Positions 10,554 through 18,528 of a stretch of 58,653 bases of DNA are shown here, in pieces (the first letter of the stretch is position 1; the number at the start of each line of letters is the position of its first letter). The DNA comes from Muribaculaceae bacterium. GTDB taxonomy: Bacteria > Bacteroidota > Bacteroidia > Bacteroidales > Muribaculaceae. Location of the stretch: positions 1-58,653 of the forward strand of contig JAGCRW010000100.1 of the NCBI GenBank assembly GCA_017964485.1. The letters run 5' to 3'. The notes under the pieces were generated by a model. The model made no database searches, was not told where the DNA came from, and saw only the letters and a program-made list of their open reading frames with translations. A program made the translations under genes and the position numbers.

Positions 10554-10573
10554 TAGTTTAAAAATTGCTACTC

Positions 10574-11404
10574 ATGGAATCTCAGCCACTAAGAATAGAT
10601 GTCGATAGCGTGATAAGGCAACGACTGCCCCGTCACTACAAATATATCCCCAAATTTATGATAAGGTGGCTTGAGCGCATCATCAAGCAAGATGGCCTGA
10701 ACAAGATCCTTACTGATATGGGTGACAAGAAGGGTGTGGATGCCGCCGACATCGCACTCGCCGACCTTAATGTCTCCTATAATGCCATCAACGAGGAGAA
10801 CATTCCCAGCGAGGGGCGTTTCATCTTCGCCAGTAACCACCCTTTAGGCGGGCTCGACGGCATGGCGCTGATTTCGCTTATCGGCCACCGCTATCATGGT
10901 GAGATTAAGTTCATTGTCAACGACCTGCTCATGGCAGTCAAGCCTTTTGACAACGTGTTTATGCCCATCAACAAGCATGGGAGGCAGTCGCGAGAGTATG
11001 CGCTGGAGATTGAGAAGCAGTATAATGGCGACAAGCAGATGATTACCTTCCCTGCAGGACTATGTTCCCGCAGGCTCAAGGGCGGCAAGATTGGCGACTT
11101 GAAGTGGCAGAAGTTTGTAGTGTCTCAGGCCATCAGCAGTCAGCGTGACATCATCCCGGTATATTTCGACGGTTGCAACAGCAAGTTCTTCTACCGCTTT
11201 GCCAAGGCAAGGGAGTGGCTTGGAATCAAGTTCAATATTGAGATGATTTTATTGCCACGAGAGATGTTTAAGTGTTCGGGACAAAAGTTTGACGTGTATT
11301 TTGGCGAGCCCATCAAGTGGCAGTCGCTAGATGCGAAAAACGCCCGAGGCGAGGCCGAGAAAATCAGAGAGTTGGTTTACACACTTAGCGCTTCGCACGA
11401 TTAG
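10574..11404 (+). CDS. glsA: O-acyltransferase of glycine-lipid synthesis (GlsA-like)
   Basis: 276 residues from the ATG at 10574. It belongs to the PlsC/glycerolphosphate acyltransferase superfamily: the HX4D-type motif is FASNHPLGGLDG, and the later block FPAGLCSRR corresponds to the family's FPEGTRS motif. In Bacteroides thetaiotaomicron a gene of this type (glsA) sits beside glsB, and together they make N-acyl-3-acyloxyacyl glycine lipids. GlsA adds the second fatty acid in ester linkage. The gene lies 61 bases before glsB, consistent with an operon. The last codons (ASHD and stop) are shared with a repeat-like sequence also found at 14020-14043. Confidence 0.78.
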   Translation: MESQPLRIDVDSVIRQRLPRHYKYIPKFMIRWLERIIKQDGLNKILTDMGDKKGVDAADIALADLNVSYNAINEENIPSEGRFIFASNHPLGGLDGMALISLIGHRYHGEIKFIVNDLLMAVKPFDNVFMPINKHGRQSREYALEIEKQYNGDKQMITFPAGLCSRRLKGGKIGDLKWQKFVVSQAISSQRDIIPVYFDGCNSKFFYRFAKAREWLGIKFNIEMILLPREMFKCSGQKFDVYFGEPIKWQSLDAKNARGEAEKIRELVYTLSASHD

Positions 11405-11465: not shown

Positions 11466-12392
11466 ATGGTACAGGAAATAATTGACAAGGTAGACATCAA
11501 GCTCATTACCCAGGAGTTGACTCCAGAGCGGTTGTTGCGCAAGACCAATAAGGCAGGCAACGAGATTTATGTTGTCGATGCCCACAACTCGCCAAATACC
11601 ATGCGTGAGATAGGACGCCTGCGAGAGGTGGCGTTCCGTCAGGCTGGTGGCGGCACTGGCAAAGACTGCGACATCGATGAGTTTGATCTTATGGAGCCAG
11701 CGTGCCAGCAATTGTTGGTGTGGAACCCCGATGACCAGGAGATTATAGGCGCTTACCGATATATTGTGGGCAAGAATATGCGCTTCAACGAGGATGGGGT
11801 GCCTAATATCGCCATGTCGCACATGTTCCATTTTTCGCAGGAATTCCTAGATGACTATCTTCCCTATACCATTGAATTGGGACGCTCGTTTGTAAGGCCA
11901 GAATATCAGTCTAGTAAGGTTGGCGCCAAAGGCATCTTTGCCCTCGACAATCTGTGGGACGGGTTGGGAGCTTTGACAATCGTCTATCCTGAAATCAAAT
12001 ACCTCTTCGGCAAGATGACGATGTATACCAATTATCCCGTTGACTGCCGCAACCTGCTGCTTGCCTTCCTCCACCTTTATTTCCCTGATCCTGACAAATT
12101 GGTGGTGCCCATCACCCCACTCAACATTGGTGACATGAAAGAGCTGGTGTCATTCTTCGAAGGGAATAACTTCAAGAAAGACTACCTGCTCCTTAACAGC
12201 TACATCCGCAGCAAGAGCATCAACATCCCGCCACTAATCAGCGCTTACATGAGTCTGTCACCCACTATGCGCATGCTCGGCACCGCCATCAACCACGAGT
12301 TTGGCGGCGTGGAAGAGAGCGGCATCCTCATCAACCTCGATGAAATCACCGATTCCAAAAAGAGCCGCCACATCGACACCTTTGTCGGCTAA
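11466..12392 (+). CDS. glsB: N-acyltransferase of glycine-lipid synthesis (GlsB-like)
   Basis: 308 residues, hemolysin/OlsB-like GNAT fold. Typical blocks are MREIGRLREVAFRQAGGGTG, then IIGAYRYIVG and ELGRSFVRPEYQ, seen in acyl-ACP-dependent N-acyltransferases such as OlsB. In Bacteroides GlsB forms the amide bond between glycine and a 3-hydroxy fatty acid; the GlsA-like product just upstream then acylates the hydroxyl. The pairing and order support the assignment over an ornithine-lipid role, though ornithine cannot be excluded from sequence alone. Glycine lipids are major membrane components and precursors of host-active serine-glycine lipids in this phylum. Confidence 0.8.
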   Translation: MVQEIIDKVDIKLITQELTPERLLRKTNKAGNEIYVVDAHNSPNTMREIGRLREVAFRQAGGGTGKDCDIDEFDLMEPACQQLLVWNPDDQEIIGAYRYIVGKNMRFNEDGVPNIAMSHMFHFSQEFLDDYLPYTIELGRSFVRPEYQSSKVGAKGIFALDNLWDGLGALTIVYPEIKYLFGKMTMYTNYPVDCRNLLLAFLHLYFPDPDKLVVPITPLNIGDMKELVSFFEGNNFKKDYLLLNSYIRSKSINIPPLISAYMSLSPTMRMLGTAINHEFGGVEESGILINLDEITDSKKSRHIDTFVG

Positions 12393-12438
12393 CAGTTAAG
12401 AAGGAATCAGCCCTTTTTCTTCATCTTGGGATGAAAAA

Positions 12439-12464
12439 TGCGCCACCCAACTCTGGGCGGCGCA
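12439..12464 (-). terminator. terminator of the SPFH/GYF_2 operon
   Basis: TGCGCC-A-CCCA pairs with TGGG-C-GGCGCA. On the reverse strand the stem is followed by a run of five T, 28 bases past the last gene of the operon. Confidence 0.7.
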
Positions 12465-12491
12465 CACATAAAAACAATACGTTAGAAAAAA

Positions 12492-12851
12492 TTACTCCGT
12501 TGATCTTCTTATCAGCGAGTATAGCACTCCTATGTAAGTGAGGAGTATAAGTCCTATTATAATGAAATAAATAGTGAGCTTGTTAGGGGTGTTGAAACAC
12601 ACGATAAAGTTGACTAAGAGCACCAATACAACGAAGATTGTGCTCACTAAGCGCATATTCACATTGAGGCCTCTGGCGCTGCTCCTGATGGCAAGCATGG
12701 GCAGCAGTGTCACGGCAAGCGAGACGCCGGTGGTGATGCCTATGATGGTGTCATGGCGTGACTCGCACAATGTGGCGGCGAGAAGTCCTATCAATGCCGC
12801 TACGGCAATCGCGATAATTGCGGGTATTACGTTGAAGCTTGTTTCTTTCAT
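12492..12851 (-). CDS. small four-helix membrane protein, last gene of the SPFH operon
   Basis: 119 residues with four predicted membrane helices (about 8-27, 35-54, 67-87 and 91-112) and a charged C-terminus RRSTE. No family recognised. It starts 5 bases after the stop of the single-GYF_2 gene and is followed by a terminator, so it is the distal member of the five-gene operon. It could anchor or partner the SPFH assembly; that is context inference only. Confidence 0.65.
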   Translation of the reverse strand: MKETSFNVIPAIIAIAVAALIGLLAATLCESRHDTIIGITTGVSLAVTLLPMLAIRSSARGLNVNMRLVSTIFVVLVLLVNFIVCFNTPNKLTIYFIIIGLILLTYIGVLYSLIRRSTE

Positions 12852-12856
12852 AATGC

Positions 12857-13216
12857 TCAGCTGTTAATTGGTGGAGGGGTTAGAGCAATTATCTTAAGAA
12901 TCTCGGGCACTTGCTCAATAGGTTTCCAAGCAGGCATTCCAGGCATCCACGCCAGAGTGTCTTTATTGATGCGTCGGTTGTTGACAAGGGCAATTATATC
13001 GCTCTCGTTGAGAGGCCCCACTTGTTTGCCGTCAATGCCCAGGTAGATGATGTTAGTTTGTTGCTGTGGCGCTGGCTGCGGCATAGACTGTATAGAGCCA
13101 GGAACATACATTTGCTTCATGCTCTGATTCATCATGTTCACCATTTGTTGAGCCATTGCCATTCCCATTCCAAACTCAACAAGGCGGTCGACCGAAAAGA
13201 AATTGTTGTCGTTCAT
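12857..13216 (-). CDS. GYF_2 (DUF4339) domain protein
   Basis: 119 residues. The N-terminal third is Met/Gln-rich and helical (VEFGMGMAMAQQMVNMMNQS), followed by a Pro/Gln linker and one GYF_2 domain (about 52-108): YLGIDGKQVGPLNESDI, then DTLAWMPGMPAWKPI. GYF_2 domains bind proline-rich peptides in related proteins; the Pro-rich linkers of the neighbouring operon products are possible ligands. The gap to the upstream double-GYF_2 gene is 29 bases. Confidence 0.8.
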   Translation of the reverse strand: MNDNNFFSVDRLVEFGMGMAMAQQMVNMMNQSMKQMYVPGSIQSMPQPAPQQQTNIIYLGIDGKQVGPLNESDIIALVNNRRINKDTLAWMPGMPAWKPIEQVPEILKIIALTPPPINS

Positions 13217-13245
13217 AATATTTTGAATAATTGTTTATTTTTAAT

Positions 13246-13977
13246 TTATACTTTTGGCATCTGCGGCATTGCTGGGCCGAAGATGGATGCCAGGTCTTCG
13301 ACGTTTCCCGCCGTAAGCCACTCGGGCATACCTTCGCACCACACATACATTTGCTGCGTGAACTCTCCAGCCTGAGCAAATTGCTGCAGCTGCTGTGCGG
13401 TAAAGGGACCCACCATCTGGTTGTTGAGATTGACATAGTAGGCCTTCTGCTGCGGCATTTGTGGCATGGCGGGAGCGGGCTGTTGAGCTGGTTGTTCGCT
13501 TTGCGACTGCTGTGTGCTGGGATTCTTTGAAAAGATGTGCTCCATCATTTTCACTTGCCCTGCAGGTTGCCACTCGGTCATGCCTTCTTTCCACACCATG
13601 GTGTTAGCGTCGGCAAGATCGTTATCCACAAGGCGCTTGAATTGAATCTCGTTGTAAGGTCCGTGCTTTGTTCCCTCGATGATGGCGTAGAACGAGAAAG
13701 TGGGTGCCGCGGGCGTTGAGGGCCCTACTGCTGGCGCTGGCTGTGGCGGCACGCCAGGAGGCATGTTCTGAGGCGGATAACCTTGTGGATATCCCTGTGG
13801 ATAGGCTGTGGGGGAGGGATTGGGCTGGTTATTACTCAAGCCTTTCATCATGGCCGCCCCTGCCAGTCCGGCAGCGACAACCGAACCAGCATCCCTTACG
13901 ATATGCCTTCCGCCCCTTCGTAGCTCATACGAAGCATCATCGATAAGGTCTTTAGCTATATCTAGTAAAAAACTCAT
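13246..13977 (-). CDS. protein with two GYF_2 domains and a Pro-rich linker
   Basis: 243 residues. An N-terminal helical segment with a small hydrophobic stretch (GSVVAAGLAGAAMM, about 31-44) precedes a repetitive Tyr/Pro/Gln-rich linker (YPQGYPQGYPPQ). Two GYF_2 domains follow, at about 94-150 (FYAIIEGTKHGPYN, MVWKEGMTEWQPAG) and 178-235 (YYVNLNNQMVGPFTA, YVWCEGMPEWLTAG), and the protein ends GPAMPQMPKV. The second domain and tail closely resemble the C-terminus of the SPFH protein next door, pointing to domain duplication within the operon. It shows no catalytic motif; an adaptor role is likely. Confidence 0.8.
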   Translation of the reverse strand: MSFLLDIAKDLIDDASYELRRGGRHIVRDAGSVVAAGLAGAAMMKGLSNNQPNPSPTAYPQGYPQGYPPQNMPPGVPPQPAPAVGPSTPAAPTFSFYAIIEGTKHGPYNEIQFKRLVDNDLADANTMVWKEGMTEWQPAGQVKMMEHIFSKNPSTQQSQSEQPAQQPAPAMPQMPQQKAYYVNLNNQMVGPFTAQQLQQFAQAGEFTQQMYVWCEGMPEWLTAGNVEDLASIFGPAMPQMPKV

Positions 13978-13983
13978 ATCTTC

Positions 13984-14046
13984 TATCAGTTATCAGTTAT
14001 CAGTTCATAGTTCTCTACTCCCTAATCTCTAATCGTGCGAAGCACA
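13984..14046 (-). repeat. family A repeat plus GCTTCGCACGATTAG element
   Basis: TATCAGTTATCAGTTATCAGTT directly upstream of the double-GYF_2 gene, followed by TAATCGTGCGAAGCAC, the reverse complement of the element at the end of glsA. It sits in the 89-base gap inside the SPFH operon. Confidence 0.55.
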
Positions 14047-14066
14047 ACTAATCGGTGCGCAGCGCC

Positions 14067-15401
14067 TTATTCAGGCATCTGTGGCATTGGAGGCATGGCT
14101 GGAGCGAAGATGGTTTGCAGCTCTTCTACTTGCCCTGCGTGTACCCATTGTGGCATACCTTGTTTCCACACATAGCTCTGGGCGGTGACTTGTCCACTCT
14201 GTGCCATTTGCATGAGCTGCTGCACTGAGAACGGTCCTGCCTGTTGGTTGTTGATGTTGACGAAGTACATCGACTGTGGCATAGCCGGTGGCTGCTGCAT
14301 GCCCATTTGCGCGCTTTGGCCCATCTGGTTCATCATGCCGCCCATCTGCTGTCCTAGAACTCCGCCCATTGCCATACCGGTCATCATTCCTGCGGCGTTC
14401 ATGCCTCCGCCGCCACCCATCTGGCCCATGGTGCCAAGACTTGCCATACCAGTCTTGAGTACCTCGGCCTGCTGATCAAGGGCGTGGGTGCCAATGAAGT
14501 TGGTCTCGGTCTGCAATCTTTGGGCGCGTTGAGCCTCTTCGCGCTGTATGCGCAGAGTCTCTTCCATGTTCTGGCGGTTAAGGGCTTGCATGTCCTTCAT
14601 GTTCTGGATGTTGACGTCGGTTTGAGCGTTCATCGTGCGGCCAGTATTGCCGGCAGTGAGCTGACGCAGTTCCTGATAGAATGGGCTCTGCTTGTCAACA
14701 TCGATAGCCTCGATATCTAAGGCCTTCAGGTTTATGCCAAAGTCATCGCCAAGTCGGCTCTTCAGCTGAGACTCAATGCGCTCGTTGATGACGTTGATTT
14801 TGCGCTCCATCTGCACCAGTGGAATGCCTGCCTCATCGGGGACATTTATGATGATGCCCTTCACATATCGTGCCACAGCAGCTTGAATCTGGTTACGGAA
14901 CTGGTTGAGGTTGAAACTGATAAGGCGGTTGAGCTTGATAAACGAGCGGTAGTCAGTGAGGTTGAAGGTGATGGTGCCTCTCACTGCTACTGGCACGCCG
15001 TGGTCGGGTAGACGTGGGTCGAATACATCAAAATAGGGCACACCAAATTTTACTTGGTTATTGCCTTGCAGGTTGATGAAATACACCTCGGCCTGGAATG
15101 GCGAGTTGCCACCGAAAGCCATACCCACAATGCTTGCCAGCACGGGGAAGTTGGCGGTCTTAATAGTGTCGTCAAAGGGGCCCAGGATAAAGTCCTGCAT
15201 GGTGCCGTCCTTCTGCTTATATACAAAGACAGCCAGCTCGCCGTCTTTAACCCTGAGGCTGCTGCCATAGCGTATGCTGTTTTCACGACTTGTAGTGTTG
15301 GCCTCTTTTCCTGGAGTCCATTTCCACACAAGATAATTTTCTTCATCGCAGCGGATTACGTTCATTGCGCCGCCGCTTTTTCCTTTTCCAAATACTCCCA
15401 T
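14067..15401 (-). CDS. SPFH-domain protein (YdjI / virion core protein-like) with C-terminal GYF_2
   Basis: 444 residues. The N-terminal ~270 residues match the YdjI-type SPFH group (COG4260): VIRCDEENYLVWKW, then a beta-rich region and FKIxL-type helices ending ALDIEAIDVDKQSPFYQEL. A coiled-coil arm rich in Gln/Arg/Glu (about 275-315) and a Met/Gly-rich linker (about 325-385) lead to one GYF_2 domain (MYFVNINNQQAGPFSV, YVWKQGMPQWVHAG) and the tail APAMPPMPQMPE. SPFH proteins oligomerise into membrane-associated rings or scaffolds. Bacillus YdjI works with YdjG and YdjH in PspA-dependent membrane stress. The gene starts 6 bases after the zinc-ribbon membrane gene, as in that pairing. Confidence 0.85.
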   Translation of the reverse strand: MGVFGKGKSGGAMNVIRCDEENYLVWKWTPGKEANTTSRENSIRYGSSLRVKDGELAVFVYKQKDGTMQDFILGPFDDTIKTANFPVLASIVGMAFGGNSPFQAEVYFINLQGNNQVKFGVPYFDVFDPRLPDHGVPVAVRGTITFNLTDYRSFIKLNRLISFNLNQFRNQIQAAVARYVKGIIINVPDEAGIPLVQMERKINVINERIESQLKSRLGDDFGINLKALDIEAIDVDKQSPFYQELRQLTAGNTGRTMNAQTDVNIQNMKDMQALNRQNMEETLRIQREEAQRAQRLQTETNFIGTHALDQQAEVLKTGMASLGTMGQMGGGGGMNAAGMMTGMAMGGVLGQQMGGMMNQMGQSAQMGMQQPPAMPQSMYFVNINNQQAGPFSVQQLMQMAQSGQVTAQSYVWKQGMPQWVHAGQVEELQTIFAPAMPPMPQMPE

Positions 15402-15407
15402 ATCACA

Positions 15408-16199
15408 TTATTTTGAAAGTTTCAAATCTTTTTCTATCTCTCTTATGGTGTTCATCGCGCCAGCGTCCTCCCTGAGGATGAACTTGGCCTTTGTAGTCAC
15501 TTGCTCGCACTTGTTGCGCCACACCTCGGCCATCTTGTTCTGGTCGCGGATGGGCTCAACACGTTTTTTCAATGCGAAATGACCAACTAACGCGCCTATC
15601 AGGCCAAAGAAGATGCCAAGCGTCAATCCAGCGTCAAAACCTTCGCCTAATGACTTCTGCATGCTTGTTATAAAGCCCAGAATGAAGAAGACCACAAACA
15701 CTATCAATCCTAGTGTCAAAGAGGGCCCTAGAATTCCTAAGAAGCTTTTTTTCTTCTTCGCGTTAGGCGCAGCCATAAACAGGAATTCCATGATGTCCTC
15801 CTTCGTGGTGGGCACAGGGAAGCTCTTGATGGCGTTCTTGATGCGCTCCTGCCGCTGCTCTTTGATAATCTCTTTGGCCGAAATATCATTAATCATGTCC
15901 GAGAGTTTCTGCACCGATTTTGTGGCTCCCACGTTCACGATTTCGGTGCCGCATTGCGGGCAGCGTGTTTGCATATAAGAGATGATGGCGCCACAGGCAG
16001 GGCATTTCCTTACCTTGGCTACAGCGCCTTGGGCGTCAATCTGCATCTGTTGCAGGCGTGAGTTTATATAGATATCTACCTCATCGGGGTCGTAGCCTTC
16101 GAGCAGCGCGCGTTTCTTGATTACAGCGCGTTCCTGGTCGCTCAATATACCGTCGGTCAGGGCGGCATCTATCAGGCTATTAAGTTCGGGGGATAACAT
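15408..16199 (-). CDS. zinc-ribbon membrane protein, first gene of the SPFH operon
   Basis: 263 residues. Residues 1-55 resemble a TerB-like helical segment (LTDGILSDQERAVIKKRA). A zinc ribbon follows with cysteines at 66, 69, 80 and 83 (CPAC and CPQC), then a charged helical region. Two membrane helices (about 153-180 and 188-210) precede a cytoplasmic helical tail. Layout and position next to an SPFH gene parallel Bacillus YdjG, although homology was not tested. It is probably an inner-membrane anchor with a cytosolic sensor-like ribbon. It is first in an operon of five, with a possible promoter at 16287-16294. Confidence 0.78.
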   Translation of the reverse strand: MLSPELNSLIDAALTDGILSDQERAVIKKRALLEGYDPDEVDIYINSRLQQMQIDAQGAVAKVRKCPACGAIISYMQTRCPQCGTEIVNVGATKSVQKLSDMINDISAKEIIKEQRQERIKNAIKSFPVPTTKEDIMEFLFMAAPNAKKKKSFLGILGPSLTLGLIVFVVFFILGFITSMQKSLGEGFDAGLTLGIFFGLIGALVGHFALKKRVEPIRDQNKMAEVWRNKCEQVTTKAKFILREDAGAMNTIREIEKDLKLSK

Positions 16200-16286
16200 A
16201 CTGATTTCTGGTTTTAAGTTATTAGTTTGTTTATGTTTTGTTGCTATTTATAATTAGATATGTGTTTAAAACACAAGTTTAATCTG

Positions 16287-16294
16287 CAAAAATA
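16287..16294 (-). promoter_or_regulatory. possible -7 box of the SPFH operon
   Basis: Reverse-strand TATTTTTG, 88 bases upstream of the first ATG (16199). The region is very AT-rich, so specificity is low. Confidence 0.35.
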
Positions 16295-16404
16295 CAAAAA
16301 AATTACTTTTAAACAATATCCTGTCTTTATTTTAATGAAAAAAACTGCCGATAATGCACTTTTTTACACAATTAGCAAAATATGTGCCAAAAGCGACAAC
16401 CTAA

Positions 16405-16437
16405 AAACTGATAACTGATAACTGAAAACTGAAAACT
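16405..16437 (+). repeat. family A repeat before metG
   Basis: AACTGATAACTGATAACTG followed by AAAACTGAAAACTT, immediately upstream of the metG -7 box. Confidence 0.6.
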
Positions 16438-16443
16438 TTTCAT

Positions 16444-16451
16444 TACCTTTG
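16444..16451 (+). promoter_or_regulatory. -7 box of metG
   Basis: TACCTTTG followed by CA, 32 bases before the metG ATG. The upstream -33 region is formed by the family A repeat and lacks a TTG. Confidence 0.55.
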
Positions 16452-16482
16452 CAGCGAATTTCAAGAAAAAAGTAATATAACT

Positions 16483-18528
16483 ATGGAAGATAAGAAGAAA
16501 TATGCACGCACTCTCGTGACAACTGCGTTGCCTTACGCCAACGGCCCTGTGCACATTGGGCACCTAGCTGGAGTTTATGTACCTGCCGATATCTACGTGC
16601 GCTACCTGCGCCTCAAGGGCGAGGACGTGATAATGATTGGCGGCAGCGACGAGCACGGCGTGCCCATTACCATCAAGGCACAGAAGGAAGGTGTTACACC
16701 ACAAGACATTGTTGACCGTTATCACAAGATAATAAAAGACTCGATGGAGGGGCTGGGTATCTCGTTTGACGTGTATGGCCGCACCACCAGCGCCACTCAC
16801 CGCAAGACCGCCAGCGAGTTCTTCAAGAAACTCTACGACAAGGGCGAGTTCATAGAGAAGACCAGTATGCAGTTCTATGATGAGGAAGCCGACCAGTGGC
16901 TTGCCGACCGTTACATCACCGGCACATGCCCTCATTGTGGCAACGAGGGCGCCTATGGCGACCAGTGTGAGGCATGCGGCACATCGCTTAACGCCACCGA
17001 CCTCATCAACCCCAAGAGTGCCATTACAGGCAACGTGCCTGTGCTCAAGGAGACTAAGCACTGGTATATGCCTCTTGACAAGTGGGAACCTCGCCTACGC
17101 CAATGGATTCTCGAGGAGCACAAAGAATGGAAGACCAACGTCTATGGCCAGTGCAAGTCATGGCTAGATGCAGGCCTGCAGCCCCGTGCCGTAACCCGCG
17201 ACCTTGACTGGGGTATCCCCGTGCCCATCGAGGGTGCCGAGGGTAAGGTGCTGTATGTGTGGTTTGATGCGCCTATTGGCTACATCAGCAACACTATAGA
17301 TTTGCTCCCCGACACTTGGGAGAAATACTGGAAAGACCCTGAATCTCGCATCATCCACTTCATCGGCAAGGACAACATCGTGTTCCACTGCCTTATCTTC
17401 CCCGCTATGCTTATGGCTGAAGGCACCTATCAGCAGCCCGACAATGTGCCGGCCAACGAGTTTCTGAATCTTGAGGATGATAAGATTTCTACTAGTCGCA
17501 ACTGGGCAGTGTGGCTGCACGAGTATCTCGAGGACTTCCCCGGCAAGCAAGACGTGCTGCGCTATGTGCTCACCGCCAATGCTCCTGAGACCAAAGACAA
17601 TAACTTCACTTGGAAGGATTTTCAGGACCGCAACAACAACGAGCTGGTGGCTATCCTCGGCAACTTTGTGAACCGCGCTATCGTGCTCACCAACAAATAC
17701 TTCAACGGCGTGATTCCTGAGGCGCATGAGCTGACTGACTATGACAAGCAGACCATCGATGAGTTTAAGGGTGTGAAAGACGAGCTTAGTAAGGCTCTCG
17801 ACACATTCCACTTCCGTGCTGCCCTCGCCGAGGCTATGAAGCTGGCGCGCATCGGCAACAAATATCTTGCCGATACCGAGCCTTGGAAACTAGCCAAGAC
17901 CGATATGGCGCGTGTGGAGACAATCATGAACATTGCTCTGCAAATCACAGCCAACCTTGCCATTGCCTTTGAGCCATTCCTGCCGTTCAGCGCCGAGAAG
18001 CTGCGCAAGATGATAAATCTTGAGAAAGCCGATTGGAACAAGCTTGGCTCTATCGATATCCTCAAGGCTGGCGACCGCGTGGAGGCTCCAGTGTTGCTCT
18101 TCGAGAAGATTGATGACGAGACCATAAAAATTCAGACCGACCGCCTCGAGCGTATCAAGCAGGAGAATATCCTCAAGAACTTCACGCCTAAGGCTGTGGC
18201 GCCAACCGTGTCGTTTGACGATTTCCAGAAGCTAGACATCCGCGTGGGCAAGGTACTTGAGTGCGAGAAGGTGAAGAAGGCCGACAAGCTGCTCAAGTTC
18301 ACAATCGACGACGGTATGAAAGGCCGCACCATAGTCTCGGGTATCGCCAAGTTCTACAACCCTGAGGACCTCGTGGGCAAGGAAGTGTGCTTTATCGCCA
18401 ACTTCGCCCCCCGCACACTCAAGGGCATTGAGTCGCAGGGTATGATTCTCAGCGCCGAGGATGCCGACGGCCGCCTTGTCGTGATAGGTCCCCACGGAGA
18501 AGTTCGCCCTGGCGTGCAAGTGGGGTAA
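16483..18528 (+). CDS. metG: methionyl-tRNA synthetase with C-terminal tRNA-binding domain
   Basis: 681 residues. The class I signature [14 protein letters not shown] is at the N-terminus and the KMSKS-equivalent is KISTS in [13 protein letters not shown] zinc-binding knuckle (CPHC and CEAC, about 146-168) lies in the connective peptide. The C-terminal ~110 residues from [13 protein letters not shown] form an EMAPII/Trbp111-like tRNA-binding domain that promotes dimerisation, as in E. coli MetRS. It charges tRNA-Met in the cytosol. It is a single-gene unit with its own terminator. Confidence 0.97.

Follow-up and report, generated by a model that had tools for sequence, protein, structure and literature searches.

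The window analysed here, a 58,653-nt stretch of contig JAGCRW010000100.1 from a Muribaculaceae bacterium, carries five open reading frames (ORFs) that lie head to tail on the minus strand, from position 16199 to 12492, and include a gene for an SPFH protein with a GYF_2 tail. The intergenic gaps are, in gene order, 6, 89, 29 and 5 bases. A preliminary description of the sequence had presented these genes as a five-gene operon, and our analysis confirms that this operon is real, the layout being beyond chance since many relatives share the gene order. Four of the genes, ZTM, SPFH, PX and TM4 (ZTM, PX and TM4 are names coined in the present analysis), make up a conserved core; the fifth, which encodes a double-GYF_2 protein, is a lineage add-on and not part of that core. 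The operon is a PspA-free arrangement and looks related to, yet distinct from, the membrane-stress proteins of Bacillus. As a tentative reading, we propose that its products may form a membrane-tethered SPFH scaffold, independent of PspA, which would present clients with an interface of GYF_2 domains and Pro-rich ends and serve membrane homeostasis.

Conservation of the operon was followed by a scan of genome contigs with two SPFH peptide patterns located just before the tail. The best 80 of 176 relatives, ranked by likeness to the GYF_2-tailed query, were combined with the window and loci L029, L030 and L031 to give 84 loci. Because of the patterns and the ranking used, this set favours GYF_2 tails, and it includes two duplicate pairs (L029/L040 and L030/L041), each apparently the same contig. 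Using profiles built iteratively from the same loci that were later counted, we detected SPFH in 84 loci, PX in 81, ZTM in 79 (a count that may take in some other zinc-ribbon proteins) and TM4 in 76. The order ZTM-SPFH-PX-TM4, with intervening genes allowed, was kept in 64 of the 84 loci; partial orders were ZTM-SPFH-PX (seven loci), SPFH-PX-TM4 (six), the same with ZTM downstream (four) and arrangements without PX (three). The loci come from Prevotellaceae, Muribaculaceae, Bacteroidaceae, Rikenellaceae, Flavobacteriales, Cyclobacteriaceae, one Kapaibacterium and others, so that the operon withstood the test set for it beforehand, namely whether its gene order is kept outside close relatives. 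One carrier, Bacteroides sp. 214 (L070), appears to be an isolate, its record bearing no MAG label. In the 67 loci with all four core genes the divergence of SPFH, PX and TM4 was correlated (r 0.76–0.81, against at most 0.14 in shuffles), and that of ZTM tracked less closely (r 0.41–0.53). Such correlated divergence fits joint inheritance, either vertical or by transfer.

The operon is sparsely distributed. A full-length SPFH match was present in 3 of 25 genomes of the genus (G000, G001 and G010), and strong matches to a profile of the SPFH body (E <1e-70) were obtained in 7 of 393 genomes of the order. Another 71 genomes of the order matched at 1e-12, and all 15 stretches read from these encode a shorter SPFH-GYF_2 protein. 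At 1e-40 matches were found in 9 of 395 genomes of the class and 2 of 395 of the phylum; the window's own genome is counted in each of the order, class and phylum tallies, and class loci L180–L183 are apparently the same contigs as some in L038–L117. The 18 operon genomes collected all contain ZTM (weakly, at 1e-5, in G746), with TM4 in 16 and PX in 12.

The SPFH protein belongs to the Pfam family Band_7_1 (PF13421; 1.2e-23, 84.3 bits vs. a cut-off of 24). Three window proteins exceeded the cut-off of 25.8 for GYF_2 (PF14237), with 74.0, 105.4 and 54.1 bits, and Pfam places one such domain in the SPFH protein, two stretches in the 243-aa protein and one in PX. For TM4 no Pfam family scored over its cut-off. 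The CxxC-x10-CxxC ribbon of ZTM stays under the Pfam cut-offs (20.7 of 27 bits for Zn_ribbon_3), and its four cysteines are invariant in five aligned sequences. Hydropathy, used in place of topology prediction, assigns two hydrophobic segments to ZTM and four to TM4. In the SPFH protein no 19-residue hydropathy segment above 1.6 was detected, though a shallow hairpin could escape this search, and by the same measure the protein does not have the N-terminal membrane segment or hairpin of a self-anchored flotillin. Since its Band_7_1 match is far weaker than that of L167, a shorter SPFH-GYF_2 protein of the same order (3.4e-100), the window SPFH protein represents a divergent branch of the family. 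We also considered PX as a shortened C-terminus of SPFH and rejected it: the profile comparison covered 20 columns with a score of 18.7 and a probability of 18%, which is above 60 column shuffles (maximum 14.8) and below the 19.7 reached by an unrelated SPFH stretch.

The conserved Pro element of the operon is the C-terminus of SPFH, rather than the linker of the add-on protein. PP occurs within the last 15 residues of 83 of the 84 operon SPFH proteins, the exception being the zinc-ribbon-tailed L031, and of 70 of 81 PX proteins. Outside the operon, it was seen at the C-terminus of 17 of 17 SPFH proteins with GYF_2, and no C-terminal PP was found in L036 and L037, which carry zinc ribbons, or in L156, which has neither zinc ribbon nor GYF_2. 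Taken together, C-terminal PP accompanies 100 of 100 GYF_2-tailed SPFH proteins (83 from operons and 17 shorter ones) vs. 0 of 4 without GYF_2 (L031, L036, L037 and L156). The Pro codons are mixed in seven examples, those of L062 and L068 being mostly CCA.

The preliminary description had suggested that GYF_2 domains may act as adaptors that link operon members through Pro/Gln-rich linkers, and had pointed to the YPQGYPPQ linker. The case for the double-GYF_2 protein and this linker as the key adaptor is weakened by our comparison, as the gene is present in only 8 of the 84 loci and the linker was found in this add-on protein and not in the core. In the window, L038, L039, L040/L029 and L042 the gene is inserted between SPFH and PX, and in L041/L030 it closes the operon; extra GYF_2 genes of other kinds occur in L065 and L154. 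In the remaining loci the slot either contains no gene or is taken by other genes, for example those for a bPH_1 protein (L081), for a TMEM43-like protein (L075), for small hydrophobic proteins (L072, L109 and L111) or for unknown proteins.

No match to PspA (PF04012) was found in the window's genome, which is 90.66% complete. Among the 18 operon genomes, four gave a PspA match at 0.001; in three of these it was over the cut-off and lay on contigs other than that of the operon, and the remaining 15 had none over the cut-off. PspA independence, proposed at first from the neighbourhood of the operon, therefore holds genome-wide. In the literature, Bacillus YdjI is described as a protein without membrane anchor, with a zinc finger near its end, for which YdjG and YdjH are needed to form membrane foci (PMC8581546), and band-7 proteins are reported to be encoded beside pspA in Bacteroidota among other phyla (PMC9239133). 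Our comparison with the PspA-YdjG-YdjH-YdjI operon of Bacillus subtilis rests on such published descriptions and the Pfam family. On these terms, both operons pair an anchorless SPFH protein with two membrane proteins, one of them bearing a zinc ribbon, and the earlier parallel with YdjG, YdjH and YdjI stands as far as the shared SPFH superfamily is concerned. It fails in other respects: the window has PspA neither in the operon nor in the genome, GYF_2 takes the place of the C-terminal zinc finger of SPFH (the L031 relative does have zinc ribbons), and PX and TM4 are added as core proteins.

These similarities and differences bear on a rather unlikely alternative, in which the operon would be a Bacteroidota YdjGHI module that lost PspA, ZTM and SPFH would monitor membrane damage, and GYF_2 would have replaced the zinc-finger tail without a new function. 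Such an origin would account for the SPFH superfamily, for a soluble SPFH protein with membrane partners as in Bacillus, and for the zinc ribbon at the tail of L031, as in YdjI, but it sits poorly with the divergent Band_7_1 match of the window protein (1.2e-23 vs. 3.4e-100 for L167) and with PX and TM4, for which the Bacillus operon offers no named counterpart.

Shorter SPFH-GYF_2 proteins of Bacteroidales (364–389 aa; loci L157–L169 and L032–L035) are another point of comparison; matches of this kind turn up more often in the order than the present operon does. All 17 read share SPFH, GYF_2 and a Pro-rich end with the window protein, but differ in a strong Band_7_1 match (L167, the one scanned), and their stretches contained no TM4 match or separate PX gene. 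A 362–373-aa four-CxxC protein shares the stretch in 9 of the 17. We refer to these proteins as YdjI-like, as a label only. Myxococcus GltJ (AgmX; PDB 7z3c), which also contains a GYF_2 domain, was the sole PDB sequence match of the SPFH protein (9.3e-07; profile 6.2e-08), but with 34.1 bits vs. a cut-off of 450 the latter does not belong to the corresponding NCBIfam family NF033761. Human GIGYF2 and GIGYF1 follow 7z3c among the nearest solved structures as weak sequence matches. SHOCT-domain SPFH proteins, as described in PMC3581485, likewise join Band_7_1 to a small C-terminal module; in the window protein this module is GYF_2, not SHOCT. For GYF domains in a bacterial system, the nearest mention found, in PMC7159879, concerns planctomycete GTPase systems. 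Our searches of open-licence papers showed no description of this operon, which, together with the gene order shared by many relatives, supports the earlier suggestion of a candidate undescribed membrane system.

One relative, L031 (genome G036, from another family of the same order), has the same operon with one extra 81-aa gene and a different pair of tails. Its SPFH protein is 54% identical to that of the window, rising to 63% over residues 1–272, and its PX keeps the same N-terminal motif. In both proteins GYF_2 is absent and the tail is formed by zinc ribbons (DZR, 7e-15 and 6.5e-13). L031 is the only zinc-ribbon-tailed case among the 18 operon genomes; no further operon relatives with such tails were found in the family of G036 (1 of 6 genomes, G036 itself) or in eight other matching genomes of the class. 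This locus and the PspA counts suggest a further possibility, that the operon encodes a PspA-independent membrane-maintenance machine whose matched SPFH and PX tails, GYF_2 or zinc ribbons, would be the working interface and be exchanged together, with PX holding the place of PspA. The latter part draws on PspA matches over the cut-off, which occur in none of the 12 operon genomes that have PX vs. 3 of the 6 that lack it (p 0.025, uncorrected for relatedness), and the former on L031, a single case by which coupled exchange of the tails is not provable. We consider this possibility unlikely. A second kind of zinc-ribbon-tailed SPFH was noticed in the same genus (L036:2479-8846), near three genes without Pfam families (750, 302 and 335 aa), and in another family (L037:5726-11166), where it is followed by genes that by eye resemble those of L036.

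Across all domains of life, SPFH proteins act as organisers of membranes. In the scaffold reading that we tentatively favour, SPFH would act on the inner face of the cytoplasmic membrane without PspA. As it has no membrane segment of its own, ZTM and TM4 may tether it, by analogy with YdjI, which needs YdjG and YdjH. Its subunits could assemble into a ring or cage, as other SPFH proteins do, the C-terminal end of which would display an array of GYF_2 domains and Pro-rich tails, and PX would add further GYF_2 modules to this assembly. The slot between SPFH and PX might take lineage-specific adaptors or clients, such as the double-GYF_2, bPH, TMEM43-like and small membrane proteins. Pro-rich stretches, belonging either to operon members or to clients, would most likely cross-link the GYF_2 domains. 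The assembly would gather membrane proteins, in some lineages a CASTOR/POLLUX-like ion channel, in one patch, and would stabilise the membrane under envelope or ionic stress.

Of 93 loci, a set that includes two duplicate pairs and some short contigs, 8 have a gene for a CASTOR/POLLUX-like channel of about 630 aa no more than six genes away from SPFH. All 8 of these channel genes share the strand of the operon (sign test, 0.008). Three of these channels, scanned singly, matched Castor_Poll_mid at down to 8e-35. The channel gene starts 7 bases after TM4 in L068, and the spacing is the same in L069 provided that the gene begins at the Met that tblastn aligns; in L093, a ligand-gated-channel-like gene lies 33 bases past TM4. 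Although most loci are without it, the channel is a lead to the clients of the scaffold. Stomatins are known to regulate channels, and the same linkage could be taken to mean that the complex mainly serves to cluster or gate an ion channel, CASTOR/POLLUX-like or other, whose gene would in most genomes lie away from the operon. That explanation is decidedly unlikely, as 85 of the 93 stretches, some of them short contigs, have no such gene.

Several observations weigh against the scaffold reading itself. The scaffold function of SPFH and the binding by GYF_2 are both predictions, and plain vertical descent would likewise yield co-divergence of the core genes. In the stretches read, 6 of the 18 SPFH genomes are without PX and 2 are without TM4, so that no single partner is indispensable. 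PP near the end is missing from 11 of 81 PX proteins. Among non-operon GYF_2 proteins, 12 of 16 have PP within 25 residues after GYF_2, in none of them C-terminal, which indicates that GYF_2 proteins habitually carry Pro-rich stretches. The known ligand of eukaryotic GYF domains is a PPG-hydrophobic motif, which we found in 1 of 85 SPFH, 0 of 81 PX and 1 of 10 extra GYF_2 proteins (by eye, the window double-GYF_2 protein contains PPGV); the original idea of GYF_2 domains as adaptors thus gains from the Pro-rich C-termini that accompany GYF_2 tails but loses from the near absence of this motif. The channel is present in a minority of loci, the window has the operon but no channel, and the channel control is small (0 of 38 other stretches, 0.30 Mb, window included). 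If true, the scaffold reading would illustrate a way in which membrane stress may be dealt with in bacteria that lack PspA, and would give bacterial GYF_2 domains a concrete setting. To our knowledge, how bacterial SPFH proteins choose their clients is poorly understood, and a four-gene unit with an adaptor domain, a matching Pro-rich end, a variable slot and sometimes a linked channel would make a compact test system for this choice.

A role in anti-phage defence, raised in the preliminary description, is highly improbable: the patchy spread through the genus and order would suit it, but the best PADLOC match to the five proteins has an E value of 0.0049, over the zinc-ribbon region of ZTM, which does not qualify them as a known anti-phage system. 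Nor did the neighbours point to a defence island. On either side of the operon in L038–L117, without L040 and L041, the closest complete gene was taken if it encoded 100 to 900 aa and lay no further than 1500 bases away. No PADLOC family matched more than 3 of the resulting 125 neighbours at 1e-10 among the matches listed, which cover 25 of 30 families; these figures stand alone, without a background set for comparison. The leading matches are to helicase models, and Pfam scans suggest that they are RecQ. A pattern search of viral contigs matched 70 stretches, none of which could be confirmed as a relative, and plasmid records gave twelve matches with identity of 28% or less. The sole match in a phage record, L170 (MT835670.1, 6466-22331, labelled Bacteriophage sp.), has a ZTM-like gene and an SPFH-GYF_2 gene whose product is 51% identical to that of the window over 90% of the query. 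The phage label is probably mistaken, because the contig is unverified and unannotated and its genes look bacterial by eye.

Table. Features of the SPFH operon and its surroundings in the window
Feature	Position	Strand	Basis
ZTM, 263-aa zinc-ribbon protein with two hydrophobic segments; operon gene 1	15408..16199	-	ORF, Pfam scan, alignment, hydropathy, locus profiles
ZTM zinc ribbon, CxxC-x10-CxxC	15948..16004	-	Sequence; Cys conservation; below Pfam cut-offs
SPFH, 444-aa Band_7_1 protein with GYF_2 tail, without hydrophobic segment	14067..15401	-	ORF, Pfam, hydropathy
SPFH (Band_7_1) domain; sole match in the window's genome	14694..15284	-	Genome search
GYF_2 domain of SPFH protein	14118..14267	-	Domain match
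Pro-rich C-terminus of SPFH protein, APAMPPMPQMPE	14070..14105	-	PP in last 15 residues, 83/84 operon SPFH proteins
Double-GYF_2 protein, 243 aa, linker rich in Pro and Gln; lineage add-on, placed between SPFH and PX	13246..13977	-	Pfam, locus comparison
PX, 119-aa core protein: conserved N-terminal motif, then GYF_2 domain	12857..13216	-	Pfam, alignment, locus profiles
PX conserved N-terminal motif, RLVEFGMGMAMAQQM...MN...VPG	13088..13216	-	Alignment
TM4, 119-aa protein with four hydrophobic segments	12492..12851	-	Hydropathy; locus profiles
Terminator-like hairpin past the last gene	12438..12465	-	Hairpin search

The hairpin (12465-12438) follows directly past the last stop and is the sole terminator-like match in 12300-16600. 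Shuffles of this region yield 4.4 such matches on average, and the terminator reading is due to the position of the hairpin, not to the number of matches. Within seven genes of SPFH, a gene that appears kinase-like by eye was noticed in seven loci from Prevotellaceae or Bacteroidaceae (L043, L045, L049, L054, L056, L065 and L086), on the other strand in five of them and often with a small regulator-like gene; the kinase-like genes (7 loci) and regulator-like genes (12 loci) may belong to large paralogous families. In the window, a glycine-lipid synthesis pair on the plus strand, GlsA (10565-11404) and GlsB (11466-12392), converges on the SPFH operon, and both proteins exceed their NCBIfam equivalog cut-offs. 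In the 27 genomes of the genus with both metG and glsB, the two genes are on one contig in five and at most 5 kb apart only in G000 and G001; an empty site is unreadable because they so seldom adjoin. At the corresponding position of L029 lies a GlsB relative (92%), preceded by a similar gene.

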